48,147 nt of DNA, from NCBI GenBank assembly GCA_029260575.1, contig JAJDDB010000025.1, forward strand, positions 1 through 48,147, read 5' to 3'. The notes beneath the pieces were generated by a model. It searched no databases and had not been told where the DNA came from. It saw only the letters and a list, made by a program, of their open reading frames with translations. This document shows, one piece after another, positions 1-48,147 of the stretch; the stretch's first letter is position 1; every line of letters begins with the position of its first letter. The translations under genes were made by a program, and so were the position numbers. Source of the DNA: Phycisphaerales bacterium. Its GTDB lineage: Bacteria > Planctomycetota > Phycisphaerae > Phycisphaerales > SM1A02.

Positions 1-303
1 AAACCTCACCCCACCTATCCTGAGTTTAATTATGATGACACCTATGCCTTAATGCAGCAGCTAGGATCTTATATTAGAATTGCAGAATACCTGGAAACCA
101 GTCGGCAAGTGGTCAGGGCGAATTGCATCCGACTCGGCGTAAGGCCCAAGAGGCAGCGATATCAGTCGCCACCTCGACAGCCGGTTTACCGTCCCAAGCT
201 GCTGACAGACCTTGAGTGTGAAGCGGCATACAAAGGCAGAACCTACGAGGACAGCCCCATAGCTGCTCGACCAGAGGGTAGGTGGCGCGGAATTAGTCCT
301 TGA
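1..303 (+). CDS. Helix-turn-helix protein, C-terminal part (cut by left edge)
   Basis: Frame 1 is open from the first base, so the gene begins outside the window. The visible 100 residues align along their length with the C-terminal half of the 195-aa protein at 43712-44299. Shared features are the helix-turn-helix stretch (AEYLETSRQVVRANCIRLG here, AQYLGVSRDTVRSSCRSLG there) and an almost identical tail, YEDSPIAARPEGRWRG. A methionine at 52 is internal to the homology and not a credible start. It is probably a DNA-binding regulator of the early operon; its target is unknown. The stop codon overlaps the promoter-like start of the RNA element that follows. Confidence 0.8.
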   Translation, partial: KPHPTYPEFNYDDTYALMQQLGSYIRIAEYLETSRQVVRANCIRLGVRPKRQRYQSPPRQPVYRPKLLTDLECEAAYKGRTYEDSPIAARPEGRWRGISP

Positions 304-327
304 CCCCCGTGCCGTAATGTGCATGAT
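300..327 (+). promoter_or_regulatory. Candidate promoter of structured RNA, copy A
   Basis: TTGACC (300-305), a 16-nt spacer and CATGAT (322-327) form a modest sigma70-like promoter overlapping the stop codon of the upstream gene. The 16-nt spacer is identical in copy B (45649-45664), while sequence upstream of TTGAC differs, so conservation starts here. Transcription would begin just before hairpin 1. The -10 matches consensus at only four of six positions, so the block could instead be part of the RNA. Confidence 0.45.
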
Positions 328-478
328 GAAAGAATGTAGGGCGCTCTCCCAAGCGTGGCCCTACTACATACCAGCGAATAACTCTTGCGGGGTTGAGCTG
401 GTACGCAGAAGCCAGTATAGACTCTGCAACAGCAAATGCAAGCAAATCCCCGCCAGCAGATGGAAAGGGGATTTTTTT
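328..478 (+). ncRNA. Structured leader or small RNA, copy A (riboswitch/attenuator-like)
   Basis: P1 pairs GTAGGGC (336-342) with GCCCTAC (358-364). P2 pairs TACCAGC (369-375) with GCTGGTA (397-403). P3 pairs GCAGA (405-409) with TCTGC (423-427). A terminator hairpin follows and its T-run ends at the ATG of the next gene. Copy B (45671-45821) has the same fold with three double compensatory changes in P2 and one in P3. The P2 loop GCGGGG (387-392) is complementary to CCCCGC (448-453) in the terminator's 5' arm, allowing a pseudoknot or antiterminator. I do not recognise a known RNA family. A cis-acting leader is favoured because the Shine-Dalgarno-like GGAAAGGGG lies in the terminator's 3' side. 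Confidence 0.75.
444..478 (+). terminator. Intrinsic terminator abutting a start codon
   Basis: AAATCCCC (444-451) pairs with GGGGATTT (467-474) across a 15-nt loop, and seven T residues fill 472-478. The next base begins the ATG at 479. The GGAAAGGGG ribosome-binding segment (462-470) is partly in the 3' arm, so the hairpin would hide it when formed. Confidence 0.75.
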
Positions 479-1054
479 ATGCCCGACAAACACACATCCG
501 ACTTTACACAATGCGTAGCTGACCACCGCATGACAATTGAGACTGACAATGGGGTGCACCGTAGCGTGTACTTTGGTAGGCCGGGTCAGGGCACCTACCA
601 TTTCAGGCTTAACACATGGCCGGGGCACCTGTGTATCTCCGGCGATATGGGGGCTTACGTCTTCTCTCGCGTTAACGATATGTTTAAGTTCTTTCGTGGT
701 GACAAGGTTAATTTGGGCTATTGGGCTGAGAAGGTGCAAAGCGAAAGTAGGTTCGGCAGCGGGGTGATACAGTATGCCCCTGAACGGCTTAGGGATTGTT
801 TGGTTGACTGGTTAAAGGACCACGAGCGCGGAGAATCGATATTGGCCGATCTTGAACCGTATCTGACTACCGATTACGGGCAAGACGAGGCTTTCCGTCA
901 CATTTACGAGTACGGCGATGGCTTAGAGGAGCTCATCAGTGACATGAGCTGGCGCAGCCACAGTGAATACACTCACCATTTTAAATGGTGCTGCGAGGCC
1001 ATTGTGTGGGGCATCGCAGAGTACGACCAAGCGAGCCAGGCTAATGCGGCTTAA
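479..1054 (+). CDS. Conserved phage protein of unknown function (191 aa)
   Basis: I place the start at the ATG at 479, directly after the leader terminator, not at the upstream in-frame ATG inside the RNA. The protein has a mixed alpha/beta look with the recognisable run YFGRPGQGTYHFRLNTWPG, then LCISGDMGAYVFSR and DMFKFFRGDK. I recall this pattern from phage proteins of unknown function in early operons of Proteobacteria phages. No signal peptide or membrane segment is visible. It should be controlled by the structured leader. It has no counterpart after leader copy B, which is followed by a different, shorter gene. Confidence 0.75.
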   Translation: MPDKHTSDFTQCVADHRMTIETDNGVHRSVYFGRPGQGTYHFRLNTWPGHLCISGDMGAYVFSRVNDMFKFFRGDKVNLGYWAEKVQSESRFGSGVIQYAPERLRDCLVDWLKDHERGESILADLEPYLTTDYGQDEAFRHIYEYGDGLEELISDMSWRSHSEYTHHFKWCCEAIVWGIAEYDQASQANAA

Positions 1055-4033: not shown

Positions 4034-4302
4034 GTGACAAGAGTAAGCTGCGGGAGTTGGCTTTCAACATTGAATATGACTATCGCATAGAGGACGAAGA
4101 GGCCAAGCAATGGTTGAAGACCCTAGCCGAAGCCATAGCCGATGAGGTGGAGCGGGTAGACAGTGAAGCGGCGCAGTACAAGCGTAATCAGCAGGAGATC
4201 CGCCGCAATGAGTTCAAGGCCATCTCTGATCGGCTGGACCAGAGTGAGCATGACCTGCTCGAATTGGCCAATCACACAAAACTGCCAACGCCTGGAGAAT
4301 GA
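4030..4302 (+). CDS. Coiled-coil early protein with LAEAIADEVER module (90 aa)
   Basis: Mostly alpha-helical. MSDKSKLRELAF leads into LAEAIADEVERVDSEAAQYK and a coiled-coil stretch rich in Gln, Arg and Glu. It ends LANHTKLPTPGE. The start and coiled coil match the 47202 gene; the LANHT-LPTPGE tail matches the 44666 gene instead. Function unknown. ATGA coupling on both sides. Confidence 0.7.
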   Translation: MSDKSKLRELAFNIEYDYRIEDEEAKQWLKTLAEAIADEVERVDSEAAQYKRNQQEIRRNEFKAISDRLDQSEHDLLELANHTKLPTPGE

Positions 4303-4820
4303 CTGATCTCGCCCCATTTGGCCAAAACGCAGCCTTTGAGGAATCAAAGAACGCCGTTAAGGCCATGATCGTGGTGCTTGCAAAGCAGTTCCCCCAGGAC
4401 GCAGAGGCTATTGAGGCCTTCGCACAGGGATACATTGATACGTTGTGCGGTGTGAACCCTGGTGGAAAACCGCTCTTAACTGCCGAGCAGATCTTGACGG
4501 TGGCCAGAGAGGTAACCGCGGCGTGGCAGTACAAGAACTTTCCAGTCCCAGGTAAATTCAAGAAGGCCAGGGATGAGGAAATCAAGCACACGAAATTTAA
4601 GCCCGCGCCAGTCGATGAATCTACGCAGGCTTGGCAGGACATGGTGTATGCAGCCAAGAAATGGGTTCGCAACGGATCAATCGAAGTAATGGCGGATTAT
4701 TGGAACGCGAAGGGCAGAGAGGCATTTAACCGGCTTCCAGAGAAATACAAGGAGCGCGCCAAGGCCCGAGTTGTGGAGATAAAAAGAAATTCTCCACGAT
4801 GGGTGGACAAGCAGGATTGA
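4299..4820 (+). CDS. Conserved early protein, possibly replication-related, copy A (173 aa)
   Basis: The gene at 47551-48072 encodes a nearly identical protein, the most conserved pair in the window. The order is a helical N-terminus (AVKAMIVVLAKQFPQDAEA), then VAREVTAAWQYKNFPVPGKF, then WVRNGSIEVMADYWNAKGRE and a basic end. The Phe-Pro spacing followed by a F-P-x-P-x-x-F turn recalls lambda P-type helicase loaders. That resemblance is weak and there is no O-type partner, so the function stays open. Confidence 0.7.
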   Translation: MTDLAPFGQNAAFEESKNAVKAMIVVLAKQFPQDAEAIEAFAQGYIDTLCGVNPGGKPLLTAEQILTVAREVTAAWQYKNFPVPGKFKKARDEEIKHTKFKPAPVDESTQAWQDMVYAAKKWVRNGSIEVMADYWNAKGREAFNRLPEKYKERAKARVVEIKRNSPRWVDKQD

Positions 4821-4923
4821 ACTAGGTATGTTGGTTGGGACCACCCGAGGCCAAAGGAGAGAGACATGGCACACCATTGCATTGACGAGTCCTGACCACC
4901 AGACAGCAGAGGACGTGAGGACG

Positions 4924-42661: not shown

Positions 42662-42922
42662 ATGGAACAAGAAAACGGAATTATAAAAATGACCGCACTG
42701 GAGCGCGCTGTGGAAAAAGCAGGCGGTCAAACGAGCTTGGCAAAGAAGCTTACGCTTGACAGCGCCGTAGATGCTGATAGAAGCGATGGGGCCCCAAGGG
42801 TCTATACGCAAAGCCATGTGTGGAACTGGCTCCAGACGAAAGCGCCGGCCAATGTATGCCGGAAAATTGAGAGATTAACTGGGGTCAAATCAGAAGATCT
42901 GCGCCCTGACGTGTTTGGATGA
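42662..42922 (+). CDS. Cro/YdaS-like transcriptional regulator (86 aa)
   Basis: The order ALERAVEKAGGQTSLAKKL, SHVWNWLQT and APANVCRKIERLTGVKSEDL, ending RPDVF, is the YdaS/Cro-type helix-turn-helix pattern. There is an extra loop (DSAVDADRSDGAPRVYTQ) between the first helices. It sits at a divergent promoter pair like lambda cro and should repress one or both directions. The start follows the palindrome by 20 nt. No CI-like partner is seen beside it. Confidence 0.8.
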   Translation: MEQENGIIKMTALERAVEKAGGQTSLAKKLTLDSAVDADRSDGAPRVYTQSHVWNWLQTKAPANVCRKIERLTGVKSEDLRPDVFG

Positions 42923-43058: not shown

Positions 43059-43079
43059 TGTTCCCTCCTCCCAGACTGA

Positions 43080-43108
43080 CCCTGGACCTTCGGGTCTAGG
43101 GTTTTTTT
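43080..43108 (+). terminator. Strong intrinsic terminator with UUCG tetraloop
   Basis: CCCTGGACC (43080-43088) pairs with GGTCTAGGG (43093-43101), with one G-U pair, across a TTCG loop, followed by seven T residues. Its place just after cro corresponds to lambda tR1. Genes beyond it need read-through or another promoter. Confidence 0.85.
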
Positions 43109-43121
43109 CTTGGAGATCACA

Positions 43122-43349
43122 ATGCCACAAATGAAGAAATATCAGCCCGGCCATGAGTTCGTCCCACAGCCACGAGTAGACGCAGGAATGCCATGGTCCT
43201 GGCCACCCTCTCATGAGGCGTTCAGGAAGGCTGCAAACAGGTTCGATATCGGTGGACTGGCCTGTTACTTTGGCGTGCCCAGGAGCGAGATAGAGGCCTA
43301 TCGAGAGGCCATGAAACGTAATTCCGCCAAAGACCCCAGCCGGTTTTGA
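43122..43349 (+). CDS. Small hypothetical protein (75 aa)
   Basis: ATG 43122 with TTGGAG seven bases upstream is preferred to the TTG at 43110. The second half (FRKAANRFDIGGLACYFGVP then SEIEAYREAM) could be a small helix-turn-helix. First gene beyond the terminator. Function unknown. Confidence 0.55.
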   Translation: MPQMKKYQPGHEFVPQPRVDAGMPWSWPPSHEAFRKAANRFDIGGLACYFGVPRSEIEAYREAMKRNSAKDPSRF

Positions 43350-43350
43350 A

Positions 43351-43767
43351 ATGCACTATCTTTGCTGGTTGCTCCCATTTCCCCCTTCAGTGAACGGCTT
43401 GTTCGCAGGCAAGGCGCGACGGTTCAAGTCGAAGCCATACAAGGGGTGGATAGAGCGCGCTGGCCTCATGGCGTCTCCACAGGCGCACGTTAGGTTTGAC
43501 GGCCCTGTCAGACTCACAATAGGCCTAGGCGCCCCTGACAAGCGCCGTAGGGACGTATCTAACTACATCAAGGCCCCGGAGGACTTTATGGTCAGGAGCG
43601 CTGTCCTGGCAGACGATAGCCAGGTCATGGACGTTCGAGCCTATTGGGCATCAGACGTGGAGAACGGTTGCAGAATAGAGATCGAAGCCCTGGATTATAT
43701 GGAGACCAGCAATGTGGCCAGTAAGCAAAAAGTCATTCATAGAGAACCGCCAACGACTCGGGTTTAA
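43351..43767 (+). CDS. rusA: RusA-type Holliday junction resolvase (138 aa)
   Basis: LPFPPSVNGLFAG at the start, a basic Tyr-Lys-Gly-Trp stretch, and PDKRRRDVSNYIKAPEDFMV followed by LADDSQV reproduce the RusA family core, with acidic residues at 63, 68, 78 and 88-89. RusA enzymes cut four-way DNA junctions made in recombination or replication. The C-terminal 20 residues are extra and overlap the next gene by 56 nt. Confidence 0.85.
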   Translation: MHYLCWLLPFPPSVNGLFAGKARRFKSKPYKGWIERAGLMASPQAHVRFDGPVRLTIGLGAPDKRRRDVSNYIKAPEDFMVRSAVLADDSQVMDVRAYWASDVENGCRIEIEALDYMETSNVASKQKVIHREPPTTRV

Positions 43768-44299
43768 GCGAGACCAGGACGATGCCGATTATTACGGTGT
43801 CTGCAAGACCACAGTAGGCAAGTTTCGCAGAGAAAATGACATCCCAGCCATACCCAGGACAGGTGGCCCTGACCGCTCCTGGTGTATCTCAGAGGCAGAG
43901 TTCCGGGCCTTACATGAGAAGTACAGAACAGACCCCGCAGTAGCAGCGGCTGCTGGGGTTAACCGCTCATCGGTCAGATGGCAGCGGATGAAGTACAATA
44001 TCAAGCCGTACTTTCACGTTCGTAGATACGAATATGATGACATGTTTGCTCTAGTAGAGAGGCTTGAGTCCTTCGGCAAGGTTGCACAATACCTGGGGGT
44101 TTCCAGGGATACTGTTCGTTCAAGTTGTCGTAGCCTGGGGATTAAATCCAAGATCAAGCAAAACCCTCCACGCCGGCCATTCAAGGTGAAGGGCCCCAAG
44201 CTGCTGACAGATCGTGAGCGGAGGGAGACCTACGGGAGCAAGGTCTACGAGGACAGCCCAATAGCCGCCAGACCCGAGGGTAGGTGGCGTGGGCCATGA
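43712..44299 (+). CDS. Regulator with three helix-turn-helix-like repeats (195 aa)
   Basis: Three HTH-like units are visible: DADYYGVCKTTVGKFRREND (about 24-45), DPAVAAAAGVNRSSVRWQRM (about 74-95) and VAQYLGVSRDTVRSSCRSLG (about 128-150). The tail is YEDSPIAARPEGRWRGP. It is the full-length homologue of the gene cut at the left edge. The repeated HTH arrangement suggests binding to a long or repeated DNA site. It starts inside rusA and ends in an ATGA overlap. Confidence 0.75.
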   Translation: MWPVSKKSFIENRQRLGFKRDQDDADYYGVCKTTVGKFRRENDIPAIPRTGGPDRSWCISEAEFRALHEKYRTDPAVAAAAGVNRSSVRWQRMKYNIKPYFHVRRYEYDDMFALVERLESFGKVAQYLGVSRDTVRSSCRSLGIKSKIKQNPPRRPFKVKGPKLLTDRERRETYGSKVYEDSPIAARPEGRWRGP

Positions 44300-44673: not shown

Positions 44674-45010
44674 CCAAGATAATTGGCTCGCAGACGAAAT
44701 CGAGTCGGCCCGTGTCGAGGTAGACGGCTGGCCAGCATGGAAGCGGGATACAATGCGGCGTGCAGTAAGCAAGGATGACGGCATGACAAGGAAGAACAAT
44801 TTACGCGCCATCGCCAAGGCCGCGCGAAACAGCGGCCTTCTAACCAAGACTTTTGAGGCTGACTTGATAGCCCGTCTAGCCGAGGCTATGGCTGATGAGG
44901 TTGAACGGATCGTCGCGGCGTTTCAGGCGCACGACAAGCGCATTGCCAACCTTGAGCGTGACGTACTCAGCCTAGCCAACCACACAAATCTGCCGACCCC
45001 GGGAGAATAG
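44666..45010 (+). CDS. Fusion-like early protein: WPAWKR head plus LAEAMADEVER tail (114 aa)
   Basis: Residues 4-32 (DNWLADEIESARVEVDGWPA, WKRDTMRR) match the start of the 3530 protein. Residues from about 70 (LAEAMADEVERI, then LANHTNLPTPGE) match the 4030 protein. In copy A these modules sit in two separate genes, so this gene is a natural fusion of the two or their ancestor. Overlaps the previous gene by 8 nt. Confidence 0.7.
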   Translation: MGDQDNWLADEIESARVEVDGWPAWKRDTMRRAVSKDDGMTRKNNLRAIAKAARNSGLLTKTFEADLIARLAEAMADEVERIVAAFQAHDKRIANLERDVLSLANHTNLPTPGE

Positions 45011-45407: not shown

Positions 45408-45646
45408 TGACTGAGAGACTACGAGAACTGGCAGGGGTGTTTAGCCAGACGTTCGGCGAGGACGCTATTCGCAGCGACACACGCGGCCTACTGTCTGGCT
45501 TGTACTTTGATATGGCCCGCCTAGCCGAGGCCATGGCTGATGAGATTGAGCGAATTGATGGGCGTCTGGCCACGATCAGCAAACGGGTCAACATCGCGAA
45601 CGAGCGCATTGATGTGGTTAATGGCCGCATTAACATCTCGACTTGA
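45407..45646 (+). CDS. Coiled-coil early protein with LAEAMADEIER module (79 aa)
   Basis: TERLRELAGVFSQTFGEDAI, then LAEAMADEIERIDGRLATIS and a heptad repeat in Ile and Val. It shares the LAEA-ADE-ER module with the 4030, 44666 and 47202 genes but has its own head and tail. Its stop overlaps the promoter-like TTGACG of RNA copy B. Confidence 0.65.
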   Translation: MTERLRELAGVFSQTFGEDAIRSDTRGLLSGLYFDMARLAEAMADEIERIDGRLATISKRVNIANERIDVVNGRINIST

Positions 45647-45670
45647 CGCCCGTGCCGTAATGTGCATGAT
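45643..45670 (+). promoter_or_regulatory. Candidate promoter of structured RNA, copy B
   Basis: TTGACG (45643-45648), a 16-nt spacer identical to copy A, and CATGAT (45665-45670). As in copy A it overlaps the stop codon of the upstream gene, although that gene is a different one. Confidence 0.45.
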
Positions 45671-45821
45671 GGAAAGAATGTAGGGCGCCTTCCCAAGCTC
45701 AGCCCTACTACATATCGGTGAAATTCTCTTGGCGGGGAAAACCGATACGCAGGAACACCATACACCCTGCAACAGTAAATGCAAGCAAATCCCCGCCAGC
45801 AGATGGAAAGGGGGTTTTTTT
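45671..45821 (+). ncRNA. Structured leader or small RNA, copy B
   Basis: P1 is GTAGGGC (45680-45686) with GCCCTAC (45702-45708). P2 is TATCGGT (45713-45719) with ACCGATA (45741-45747). P3 is GCAGG (45749-45753) with CCTGC (45766-45770). The terminator is AAATCCCC (45787-45794) with GGGGGTTT (from 45810). The P2 loop GGCGGGG (45731-45737) is complementary to CCCCGCC (45791-45797), one pair longer than in copy A. Arms of P2 and P3 differ from copy A only by paired changes. The ATG of the next gene follows the T-run directly. Confidence 0.75.
45787..45821 (+). terminator. Intrinsic terminator abutting a start codon, copy B
   Basis: AAATCCCC (45787-45794) pairs with GGGGGTTT, including a T-G wobble, across the same 15-nt loop as in copy A. 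Seven T residues end at 45821. The ATG is at 45822 and the GGAAAGGGGG ribosome-binding segment is in the 3' side. Confidence 0.75.
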
Positions 45822-46001
45822 ATGGATAAACCCACTGGTTGGCTCAACACAGAACTAGAGGCTGTGCGGACTAAGCGCCGCCTGGAGGCCGCTGCCCCGG
45901 AGTTGCTTCACGCCCTTAAATATGCGCGTGACCAGCTCAGCGCCGAGGACGACACGGGGTACATTGACAGTATTATTGCCAAGGCGGAGGGCTCAACCTG
46001 A
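45822..46001 (+). CDS. Small protein with LLHALKYARDQL module (59 aa)
   Basis: Start at ATG 45822 after leader copy B. A basic helix (NTELEAVRTKRRLEAAAPEL) is followed by LLHALKYARDQL and YIDSIIAKAEG. The second half matches the 41649 protein on the other strand and is common in short phage proteins. Unrelated to the 479 gene that follows leader copy A. Confidence 0.65.
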   Translation: MDKPTGWLNTELEAVRTKRRLEAAAPELLHALKYARDQLSAEDDTGYIDSIIAKAEGST

Positions 46002-46025
46002 TCAACTAGTCTGAAGGTTAGTTTA

Positions 46026-46229
46026 GTGCCTGTCCTCAAATCTGGGCGCTACCGGGAAAAGAACCGGGCAGACGAAAAATACAAATCCAGGCTCTTTCGT
46101 GGCACTGAAAACCTGGTCACGTGGTGTGATTTATCACAGAAGCCCCGCAGAGATGTGACAGAGTTGACGACTTGGTTGCAGGGTAGAGGGGGTTTAAGCT
46201 CTACCGGGACAGGCTGGAGAGCAGCCTAA
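46026..46229 (+). CDS. Possible small basic protein (67 aa)
   Basis: GTG start with GAAGG upstream. Product: MPVLKSGRYREKNRADEKYK, later DLSQKPRRDVTELTTWLQG. Amino-acid composition is plausible, but there is no homology I recognise. Its 3' part covers two hairpins (46182-46227), so the region may instead be untranslated. Confidence 0.35.
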   Translation: MPVLKSGRYREKNRADEKYKSRLFRGTENLVTWCDLSQKPRRDVTELTTWLQGRGGLSSTGTGWRAA

Positions 46230-46282
46230 CGAGTACTCGCCCCTGACGGGGTCCAGTTAGTCGCTGGTGTGGGGGTTTACCA
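46182..46282 (+). other. Run of four short hairpins before the conserved box
   Basis: GGTAGAG/CTCTACC (46182-46205), AGGCTG-GAGAG-CAGCCT (46211-46227), CCCC-TGAC-GGGG (46240-46251) and TGGT/ACCA (46265-46282) follow one another. None has a T-run. They lead into the 36-nt box. Possibly a structured 5' leader for the 46326 gene. Confidence 0.4.
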
Positions 46283-46284
46283 CA

Positions 46285-46320
46285 GAGGAAAGTGCCGCGC
46301 TGTGCCTAAAGCAGAGGAGA
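46285..46320 (+). repeat. Conserved 36-nt box, copy B
   Basis: Identical to 2480-2515 except for one base (A to G near the end). It starts GAGGAAAGTGCCGCGCTG and ends with the AGGAGA ribosome-binding site of the next gene. Preceded by a hairpin in both copies. Confidence 0.6.
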
Positions 46321-46325
46321 GTAGG

Positions 46326-46547
46326 ATGGACGCGGGCCAGCGATTTGGTCGGTTAGTTGTCATCAAGGAATCGGTAGAGACGGGTAAATTTGTGTGTGCG
46401 TGTGATTGTGGGGGACAGGTGACTGTGGTCAAAGGGCACTTGAAGTCGGGCAATACAAAGTCCTGTGGGTGTTTCAGGCGAGGCAGAGCGTCTCGTGACA
46501 GCCGGAAGAAACCGCCGAAGTGGTACACAGAGTCGATGCGCAAGTGA
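46326..46547 (+). CDS. Small CDCG zinc-binding protein (73 aa)
   Basis: MDAGQRFGRLVVIKESVETG, CACDCGGQVTVVKGHLKSG and TKSCGC are the pattern of the small domain often found at the N-terminus of HNH/AP2 homing endonucleases (R-F-G-R-L...C-x-C-D-C-G...S-C-G-C). Here it stands alone with a basic tail. It may be a DNA-binding remnant or a free-standing module. ATG 46326 follows AGAGGAGAGTAGG. Confidence 0.7.
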   Translation: MDAGQRFGRLVVIKESVETGKFVCACDCGGQVTVVKGHLKSGNTKSCGCFRRGRASRDSRKKPPKWYTESMRK

Positions 46548-46588
46548 ATTGGATGAGCAAAGGAGAGAGTGGTGGGCGAGGAGATGAC

Positions 46589-47205: not shown

Positions 47206-47558
47206 GTGATAAGAGCAAGCTACGGCACGAGGCGTGGTTGAACCGTGGCAATAGTAACGACGCAGAAGGATGCGTCGGACTATCTGAGACAGAGCGGGTA
47301 TTGTTGCGCAACTTGGCGGGCTTAGCTGAAGCCATAGCCGCAGAGGTGGAGCGGATAGACCGCGAGGCAGCGCAGCACAAGCAGAGCCAGCAGGAGATTC
47401 GTCGCAATGAGTTCAAGATCATCTCTGGACGCCTTGACAAGCTTGAGCAGCGATTGTTGCTCGCTGAGACCGGCCAAATGGTTACGGATGCCATAGTTGA
47501 TGTGCGCACAGGGAACCAGCGCCTCCCCGGTTGGTGTTCAGGGACAGAAAGTGACTGA
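47202..47558 (+). CDS. Coiled-coil early protein, copy B, different tail (118 aa)
   Basis: MSDKSKLRHEAW and LAEAIAAEVERIDREAAQHK match the 4030 protein and its coiled coil. The last 30 residues (TGQMVTDAIVDVRTGNQRLP...) replace the LANHT-LPTPGE tail. Starts by ATGA overlap with the previous gene and overlaps the GTG start of the next gene. Confidence 0.7.
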   Translation: MSDKSKLRHEAWLNRGNSNDAEGCVGLSETERVLLRNLAGLAEAIAAEVERIDREAAQHKQSQQEIRRNEFKIISGRLDKLEQRLLLAETGQMVTDAIVDVRTGNQRLPGWCSGTESD

Positions 47559-48072
47559 TCTCGCCCCATATGGCCAAAACGCTGCCTTTGAGGAATCAAA
47601 GAACGCTGTTAAGGCCATGATCGTGGTGCTTGCGAAGCAGTTTCCCCAGGATGCGGAGGCTATTGAGGCCTTCGCACAGGGATACATTGATACGCTGTGC
47701 GGTGTGAATCCACACCAGAAGCCGCTACTCACTGCCGAGCAGGTCTTGACTGTGGCTAGAGAGGTAACCGCGGCGTGGAGCTATAAAGGGTTCCCCGTGC
47801 CAGGTAAATTCAAGAAGGCCAGGGATGAGGAAATCAAGCACACGAAATTTAAGCCCGCGCCAGTCGATGAATCCACACAAGCTTGGCAGGACATGGTGTA
47901 TGCAGCCAAGAAATGGGTGCGCAACGGATCAATCGAAGTAATGGCGGATTATTGGAACGCGAAGGGCAGGGAGGCATTCAACAGGCTCCCAGAGAAATAC
48001 AAGGAGCAAGCCAAGGCCCGAGTTGTGGAGATAAAAAGAAATTCTCCACGATGGGTGGACAAGCATGATTAA
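47551..48072 (+). CDS. Conserved early protein, copy B (173 aa)
   Basis: GTG start (copy A uses ATG at the same place). It is the same length as the 4299 protein with only scattered changes, such as NPHQKPLLTAEQVL for NPGGKPLLTAEQIL. DNA from about 47790 to 48060 is almost identical to copy A, showing recent exchange or strong selection. Function open; weak similarity to lambda P-like loaders. Confidence 0.7.
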   Translation: MTDLAPYGQNAAFEESKNAVKAMIVVLAKQFPQDAEAIEAFAQGYIDTLCGVNPHQKPLLTAEQVLTVAREVTAAWSYKGFPVPGKFKKARDEEIKHTKFKPAPVDESTQAWQDMVYAAKKWVRNGSIEVMADYWNAKGREAFNRLPEKYKEQAKARVVEIKRNSPRWVDKHD

Positions 48073-48147
48073 ACTAGGTATGTTGGTTGGGCAATGGGCA
48101 AAGGAGGTCCTTGTGGACTTCGGGACGCCTGTTCACTCGCTGGGGAT
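48065..48147 (+). CDS. Unknown gene, start only (cut by right edge)
   Basis: ATG 48065 overlaps the preceding stop and the frame stays open to the end: MIKLGMLVGQWAKEVLVDFG, then TPVHSLG. Too short to name. The corresponding place in copy A has lost this frame, because homology stops about 20 bases beyond the shared gene. Confidence 0.5.
   Translation, partial: MIKLGMLVGQWAKEVLVDFGTPVHSLG

Follow-up and report, generated by a model that had tools for sequence, protein, structure and literature searches.

The contig and the two leader copies

The window, that is, the whole stretch of DNA that was analysed, is a complete contig (C25) of 48,147 bases belonging to a 4.1 Mb assembly of 41 contigs. 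It bears phage marks in the form of a terminase large subunit and a major head protein, and it also encodes a head-tail adaptor, an exonuclease, a RusA-type resolvase, a repressor-like protein and replication-initiation-like proteins. Judged from these predicted products the contig is phage-like. In IMG/VR the head protein has relatives at 42–68% identity, and a megablast search of its first 24 kb against 50,697 phage records gave no matches.

Two copies of a leader, copy A at 325-481 and copy B at 45668-45824, have in common three hairpins (P1, P2 and P3) and a terminator hairpin. A previous sequence-only reading had placed them, with the same elements, at 328-478 and 45671-45821, and all of these are present there. 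According to a search of its own genome, the host assembly holds these two copies only. Their features, all on the + strand, are the following:

Copy A
300..327, +, promoter-like box TTGACC - 16 nt - CATGAT (sequence pattern)
336..364, +, P1, 336-342 with 358-364 and inner pairs 343-344 with 353-354 (alignment)
369..403, +, P2, 369-375 with 397-403, and inner stem P2b, 380-384 with 390-394 (double changes)
405..427, +, P3, 405-409 with 423-427 (one double change)
428..443, +, linker with repeated GCAA, AACAGCAAATGCAAGC (sequence comparison)
444..478, +, terminator-like hairpin, 444-451 with 467-474 and inner pairs 453-455 with 461-463, and U7 (472-478)
464..470, +, AAAGGGG, apparent Shine-Dalgarno (SD) in the right arm, 8 nt 5' of the ATG at 479
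479..1054, +, gene for a protein of 191 aa, phrog_4657, unknown function (profile E 2.7e-45)

Copy B
45643..45670, +, promoter-like box TTGACG - same 16 nt - CATGAT (sequence pattern)
45680..45708, +, P1, 45680-45686 with 45702-45708 and inner pairs 45687-45688 with 45697-45698 (alignment)
45713..45747, +, P2, 45713-45719 with 45741-45747, and P2b from 45724 (alignment)
45749..45770, +, P3, 45749-45753 with 45766-45770 (alignment)
45787..45821, +, terminator-like hairpin, 45787-45794 with 45810-45817, and U7; the right arm holds AAAGGGGG
45822..46001, +, gene for a protein of 59 aa, matching only the C-terminal half of phrog_1273 (E 1.3e-4)

With up to 3 mismatches allowed, the 29-base promoter pattern occurs in the window only at the two copies, and the 16-nt spacer, which had been described as conserved, has indeed the same letters in both. 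Matches to the consensus promoter are without statistical weight (5 sites found, where shuffles of 5 kb gave 3.6 with an sd of 2.1). If the box is used as a promoter, transcription of copy A would start near 334.

Comparison of the contig ends by blastn aligned 299-495 with 45642-45835 (82% over 198), and this homology extends from the promoter-like box to a little 3' of the ATG, where it fades. The leader unit is 84% identical over 182 nt (blastn) and the neighbouring homologous HTH gene is identical at 167/291 positions (57%), so that the leader is either under stronger constraint or more recently exchanged. Within the leader, the terminator, the linker and the promoter are 94–100% identical between copies (15/16 positions in the linker with its GCAA repeats), whereas the free stems vary. 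A protein might make contact with the linker, in which GCAA-like repeats occur four times, or with P1, which does not vary.

The leaders are better read as part of a longer duplicated block, and the simple picture of two copies was dropped. Patches of homology at 57–97% identity, with different genes in between, link the two contig ends (1-4839 and 44003-48091); among these patches are 1-291 with 44003-44293 and 4300-4839 with 47552-48091, the latter at 91%. The contig start falls inside an HTH gene whose homologue lies at 43712-44299, and neither end matched any other contig of the assembly. Either a tandem duplication in a genome that is circular or permuted, or an assembly that ran once round into a second strain, would account for this. 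Since the ends are homologous, the two leader copies might represent a single locus as it occurs in different strains; if the assembly wrapped round, they would be strain alleles and the paired changes described below would count equally.

Other elements were observed in and around this block. A second non-coding island (2480-2515 and 46285-46320), 97% identical, also lies directly 5' of the start codons of different genes, and is accompanied by a further ribosome-binding-site patch (2839-2862 and 46552-46575). The stretch 46002-46330, 3' of the copy B gene, contains many inverted repeats, and its 329 nt have a raw energy of -119.7 kcal/mol. Four small proteins have a LAExMADExERI-like segment in common (4114-4157, 44867-44910, 45512-45555 and 47313-47356), suggesting a shuffling of small genes. 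A strong terminator-like hairpin with T7 occupies 43079-43108, 14 nt 5' of an ATG at 43122; the repressor-like gene at 42662 lies on one side of it and the RusA-side genes on the other. Finally, the HTH protein of 43712-44299 is weakly similar to D5-like regulators in PHROGs and to mad1 of PADLOC (E 7e-6).

The terminator-like hairpin and the genes behind it

The terminator-like hairpin has a computed energy of -13.9 kcal/mol in copy A and -13.3 in copy B, and the CCCC/GGGG pairs of copy A have a probability of 0.99–1.0. A simple terminator scan left the copy A hairpin unlisted. In both copies the ATG comes straight after the U-tract and the right arm of the terminator is the only apparent SD. 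Its duplex with an assumed anti-SD sequence amounts to -7.8 kcal/mol in copy A and -11.9 in copy B.

The ATG behind copy A is supported as a genuine start by the relatives of its protein, as M1 is aligned in 4/4 sequences (the contig protein and three viral relatives), while the start behind copy B is placed by position only. Relatives of the copy A product at less than 60% identity were present in 85 phage records, and its structure model reached a mean pLDDT of 65. The copy B protein aligns through residues 20-58 with positions 53-100 of the 103 of phrog_1273. The two genes are of different families; their proteins start as MPDKHTS (A) and MDKPTG (B), so that the first codons are faintly alike before the sequences diverge. 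This, together with the end of homology near the start codon, fits a cassette serving any gene that follows it. The leader was absent upstream of the copy A gene in the three viral relatives, which indicates that it belongs to this phage and not to the gene.

Coding within the leader was considered and rejected. A leader peptide (MQANPRQQMERGFFY) has no SD 5' of it and its wider frame is not kept, and coding through the entire leader is contradicted by reading frames that shift between the copies.

Paired changes, folding and search for relatives

The alignment of both copies (A2) comprises 158 columns, 29 of which differ (27 substitutions and 2 gap columns), 13/29 lying inside paired columns. 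Among the 37 proposed pairs, six show double changes that keep the pairing, one a single change that keeps it (U-A to U-G, in the terminator) and none is broken. The double changes fall in P2 (three in 7 pairs), P2b (two in 5) and P3 (one in 5), whereas the 9 pairs of P1 are invariant and the copies differ there only in the loop and the 3' bulge. The compensatory changes on which the sequence-only reading had based its claim of a structured RNA were exact in P2 (TACCAGC/GCTGGTA against TATCGGT/ACCGATA, three double changes) and in P3 (GCAGA/TCTGC against GCAGG/CCTGC, one). It had missed the inner stem P2b, taken as loop, in which AACTC/GGGTT becomes TTCTC/GGGAA; the second of these two double changes gives U-G in the MAFFT register and U-A one column over. 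Its statement that the loops are conserved was borne out in part, as 6/8 positions of the P1 loop and 13/21 of the P2 loops are the same and 0/3 of the P1 3' bulge.

When the 27 substitutions were placed at random, six kept double changes were never obtained in 200,000 trials (0/200,000), the maximum being five (12/200,000). Under a stricter null, in which the changed columns were fixed and the new letters permuted, six were obtained in 4,789/200,000 (2.4%) and zero breaks in 2,350/200,000. In a separate shuffle test 16/500 shuffles attained the observed values, and sliding the stem partners by 1-3 columns left at most one double change. The structure tested was drawn from the same two sequences, and the selection thereby built in favours the fold. 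With covariation from two sequences, the paired changes point to conservation of the fold of the RNA as such, and the claim of a structured RNA with compensatory changes is to that extent supported.

Folding energies gave a different picture for each copy. The minimum-energy fold of copy B is the drawn structure, whereas that of copy A rearranges P2 and P3 away from it, the drawn P2 having pair probabilities of about one half (0.44–0.52). When copy A was ended after P3, its fold contained both P2 and P3. Compared with shuffles, copy A had a z of -3.11 (1/200 as good) and copy B of -1.47 (16/200). The fold is thus supported by comparison and not by energy alone.

No known riboswitch or phage RNA had been recognised by the sequence-only reading, and the whole contig gave 0 matches to Rfam 15 at gathering score. 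With the limit relaxed to E up to 10, the region 200-600 gave six sub-threshold matches, the best of which lay outside the leader and had 17.2 bits against the 50 needed, and 45550-45950 gave none. By blastn against the 50,697 phage records copy A had no match and copy B a single one of 24 bases (E 0.7), and a plasmid search with copy A had none. Exact DNA patterns found 0, 2 and 3 loci in IMG/VR, none of which is recognised by model R1, and 84 loci in GTDB contigs, which the same model scored at a best E of 0.79 for 80 of them and 0.38 for the other four. In 201 relatives, blastn gave many matches of 15-35 bases, the best outside the own genome at E 0.006, which were taken as chance.

Model R1 was also run on genome sets of the order, class and phylum, which overlap so that kin reappear. 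In 400 genomes of the order it found the own genome and two matches of 15-16 bits (E 0.37), which aligned chiefly through their terminators; in 397 of the class, the own genome only; and in 392 of the phylum, the own genome and one match of 26.4 bits (E 7e-4). The latter was discarded, being a terminator behind a gene that we take by eye to be PEP carboxykinase, with hardly any P2 and with mispairs in P1. Thirteen viral records gave 0 matches, and 18 loci with head-protein relatives gave four at E up to 5, the best of 12.9 bits (E 0.12). No report of this RNA was found in the open-licence PMC literature. The RNA thus appears to be unlisted, with no convincing homologue beyond its own genome in Rfam, phage, plasmid, IMG/VR and sampled GTDB data, a statement that covers exact DNA patterns, up to 400 genomes per search and a sample of GTDB.

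Proposed regulation and comparison with known systems

The apex of P2 is complementary to the left arm of the terminator in both copies:

387..392, +, copy A, apex of P2, GCGGGG, able to pair with CCCCGC of the left arm at 448-453 (candidate pseudoknot)
45731-45737, +, copy B P2 apex GGCGGGG, complementary to the left arm (candidate pseudoknot)

Because P2 encloses the apex, such a pairing would be a pseudoknot. The duplex amounts to -15.3 kcal/mol in copy A and -21.6 in copy B. Shuffled P2 loops paired as well with the left arm in 50/2,000 cases for copy A and 0/2,000 for copy B, and in 11/2,000 for the copy A apex against CCCCGCC alone. When copy B was transcribed only through the left arm, its minimum-energy fold used this pairing. 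Against the pseudoknot it counts that G-rich and C-rich runs pair easily, and the apex and the left arm are invariant across both copies, leaving no covariation behind it. The apex is also complementary to the 3' side of P3 (-13.1 and -11.9 kcal/mol), the pairing preferred by copy A when cut at the left arm. In the full-length RNA the terminator state wins in both copies. With the apex and left arm tied together, the first SD letters still pair near the U-tract, at 0.76–0.89 in copy A and 0.38–0.72 in copy B.

From these data a switch can be proposed. Transcription would start about 7 nt 3' of CATGAT and the RNA would open with P1, followed by P2/P2b and P3. The emerging left arm AAAUCCCCGCC would then have two mutually exclusive partners. 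Paired with the GGGG of the right arm, it would form the terminator with U7 and bury the AAAGGGG SD, an off state acting on both transcription and translation of the gene; paired with the GCGGGG or GGCGGGG apex, it would form the pseudoknot, blocking the terminator and freeing the right arm as the on state. The ratio might be set by a factor that binds P1-P3 or the linker with its GCAA repeats, or by folding speed alone, and the short attenuated RNA, about 145 nt long, could build up. We consider it just about probable that the element is such a portable cis-acting leader, an attenuator cassette of the phage early/replication region with the terminator/SD hairpin as off state and the P2-apex pseudoknot as on state.

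One alternative is a free-standing small RNA gene with a promoter and an intrinsic terminator of its own, whose structured product of about 145 nt would act on the host or the phage in trans; the ATG that follows would then be read from elsewhere or through read-through. A promoter box and a terminator do frame the RNA in both copies, P1 and the linker are kept at sequence level like binding sites, and the wording of the sequence-only reading is compatible with it. However, such a gene gives no reason for the arrangement of start codon and SD: the ATG follows straight after the U-tract, the sole apparent SD is a terminator arm and the homology includes the start codon. A small RNA could also be a by-product of the leader, and the context of the element suits the leader of a gene better than an RNA standing on its own. 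We regard this alternative as unlikely. The same hairpin bears on control of translation only, in which a helix hiding the SD would act as a thermometer or protein-repressed leader and the U-tract would be incidental. The GGGG of the SD is paired at a probability of about 1 in both copies and the SD of copy B is strong, but eight G+C-rich pairs followed by U7 in both copies are the anatomy of an intrinsic terminator, and we hold this view for distinctly improbable.

An antiterminator of the put type, in which P2 and P3 on the emerging RNA would bind RNA polymerase so that the leader's own and later terminators are ignored, is suggested by the promoter-proximal stem-loops, one base apart, in two copies in an early region. 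It has a parallel in HK022, with putL and putR of about 70 nt and two stem-loops each (PMC9378689). It is nevertheless quite unlikely, as at E up to 1 the phage records showed no DNA similarity save the 24-base chance match, and the conserved overlap of terminator and SD needs no put. Constraint outside the RNA altogether (conservation of a protein-coding sequence, a site acting as DNA, or an assembly that had joined two alleles) could draw on the homologous contig ends, which allow strain variants, and on frames that are all alike near the 3' end. Yet two indels shift the frame between the copies, the peptides of P2 and P3 differ, and six kept double changes are unexpected from coding or DNA binding; the allele reading would leave the covariation argument intact. 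We hold this explanation for very improbable. Taken together, the element is a real, conserved RNA fold in leader position; most likely it is an attenuator, known as a general kind but unlisted in this form.

A bolder proposal is that the element represents a phage riboregulator of a new class. It would be a transferable cassette running from promoter to start codon, with a covarying stem whose apex is pseudoknotted with the terminator left arm. One event would then govern termination and SD exposure, giving a common switch for different early genes. We put this forward tentatively, as a rather doubtful reading. If true, it would be a phage-borne RNA switch travelling with its own promoter and acting on any gene behind, one hairpin would govern termination and ribosome access, and a small testable model of phage early-gene timing through RNA folding alone would be available. 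At present the element stands as a well-supported orphan RNA with two members.

Three known systems invite comparison. The SAS/ESAS elements of cluster K mycobacteriophages (PMC3203893) include a 13 bp SAS in 11-19 copies per genome, and resemble the leader as a phage-specific repeat with inverted repeats directly 5' of the start codons of different genes. The present leader differs in being about 180 bp long, in having two copies and in carrying a promoter box, a terminator and covariation; the 13 bp SAS had 0 matches in the window at up to 2 mismatches. The put sites of HK022 have in common with it the phage early region, stem-loops near a promoter (putL lies just behind PL) and two copies per genome (PMC9378689). 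P2 and P3 occupy 59 alignment columns behind a promoter-like box, where put has about 70 nt. The leader has three hairpins and its own terminator over the SD. The put RNAs bind the zinc-binding domain of RNA polymerase beta' and suppress distant terminators, an activity that would be hypothetical for the leader. The HK022 stretch examined was without put annotation, and blastn of both copies against the 50,697 phage records, a search that a distant relative would escape, showed no similarity for copy A and the 24-base chance match for copy B.

In layout the element resembles leaders of the attenuator or riboswitch type, in which an intrinsic terminator or a hairpin hiding the SD serves as expression platform: it has a structured 5' part, then a terminator-like and SD-hiding hairpin and a candidate competing pairing of its left arm. 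A terminator-like hairpin with a U-tract before the gene, and a hairpin over the SD, are found in both copies. The leader differs from that type in having no apparent ligand or regulated pathway and no Rfam family, in that the competitor is a candidate pseudoknot from the P2 apex, and in that the unit includes the promoter box and precedes two different genes.
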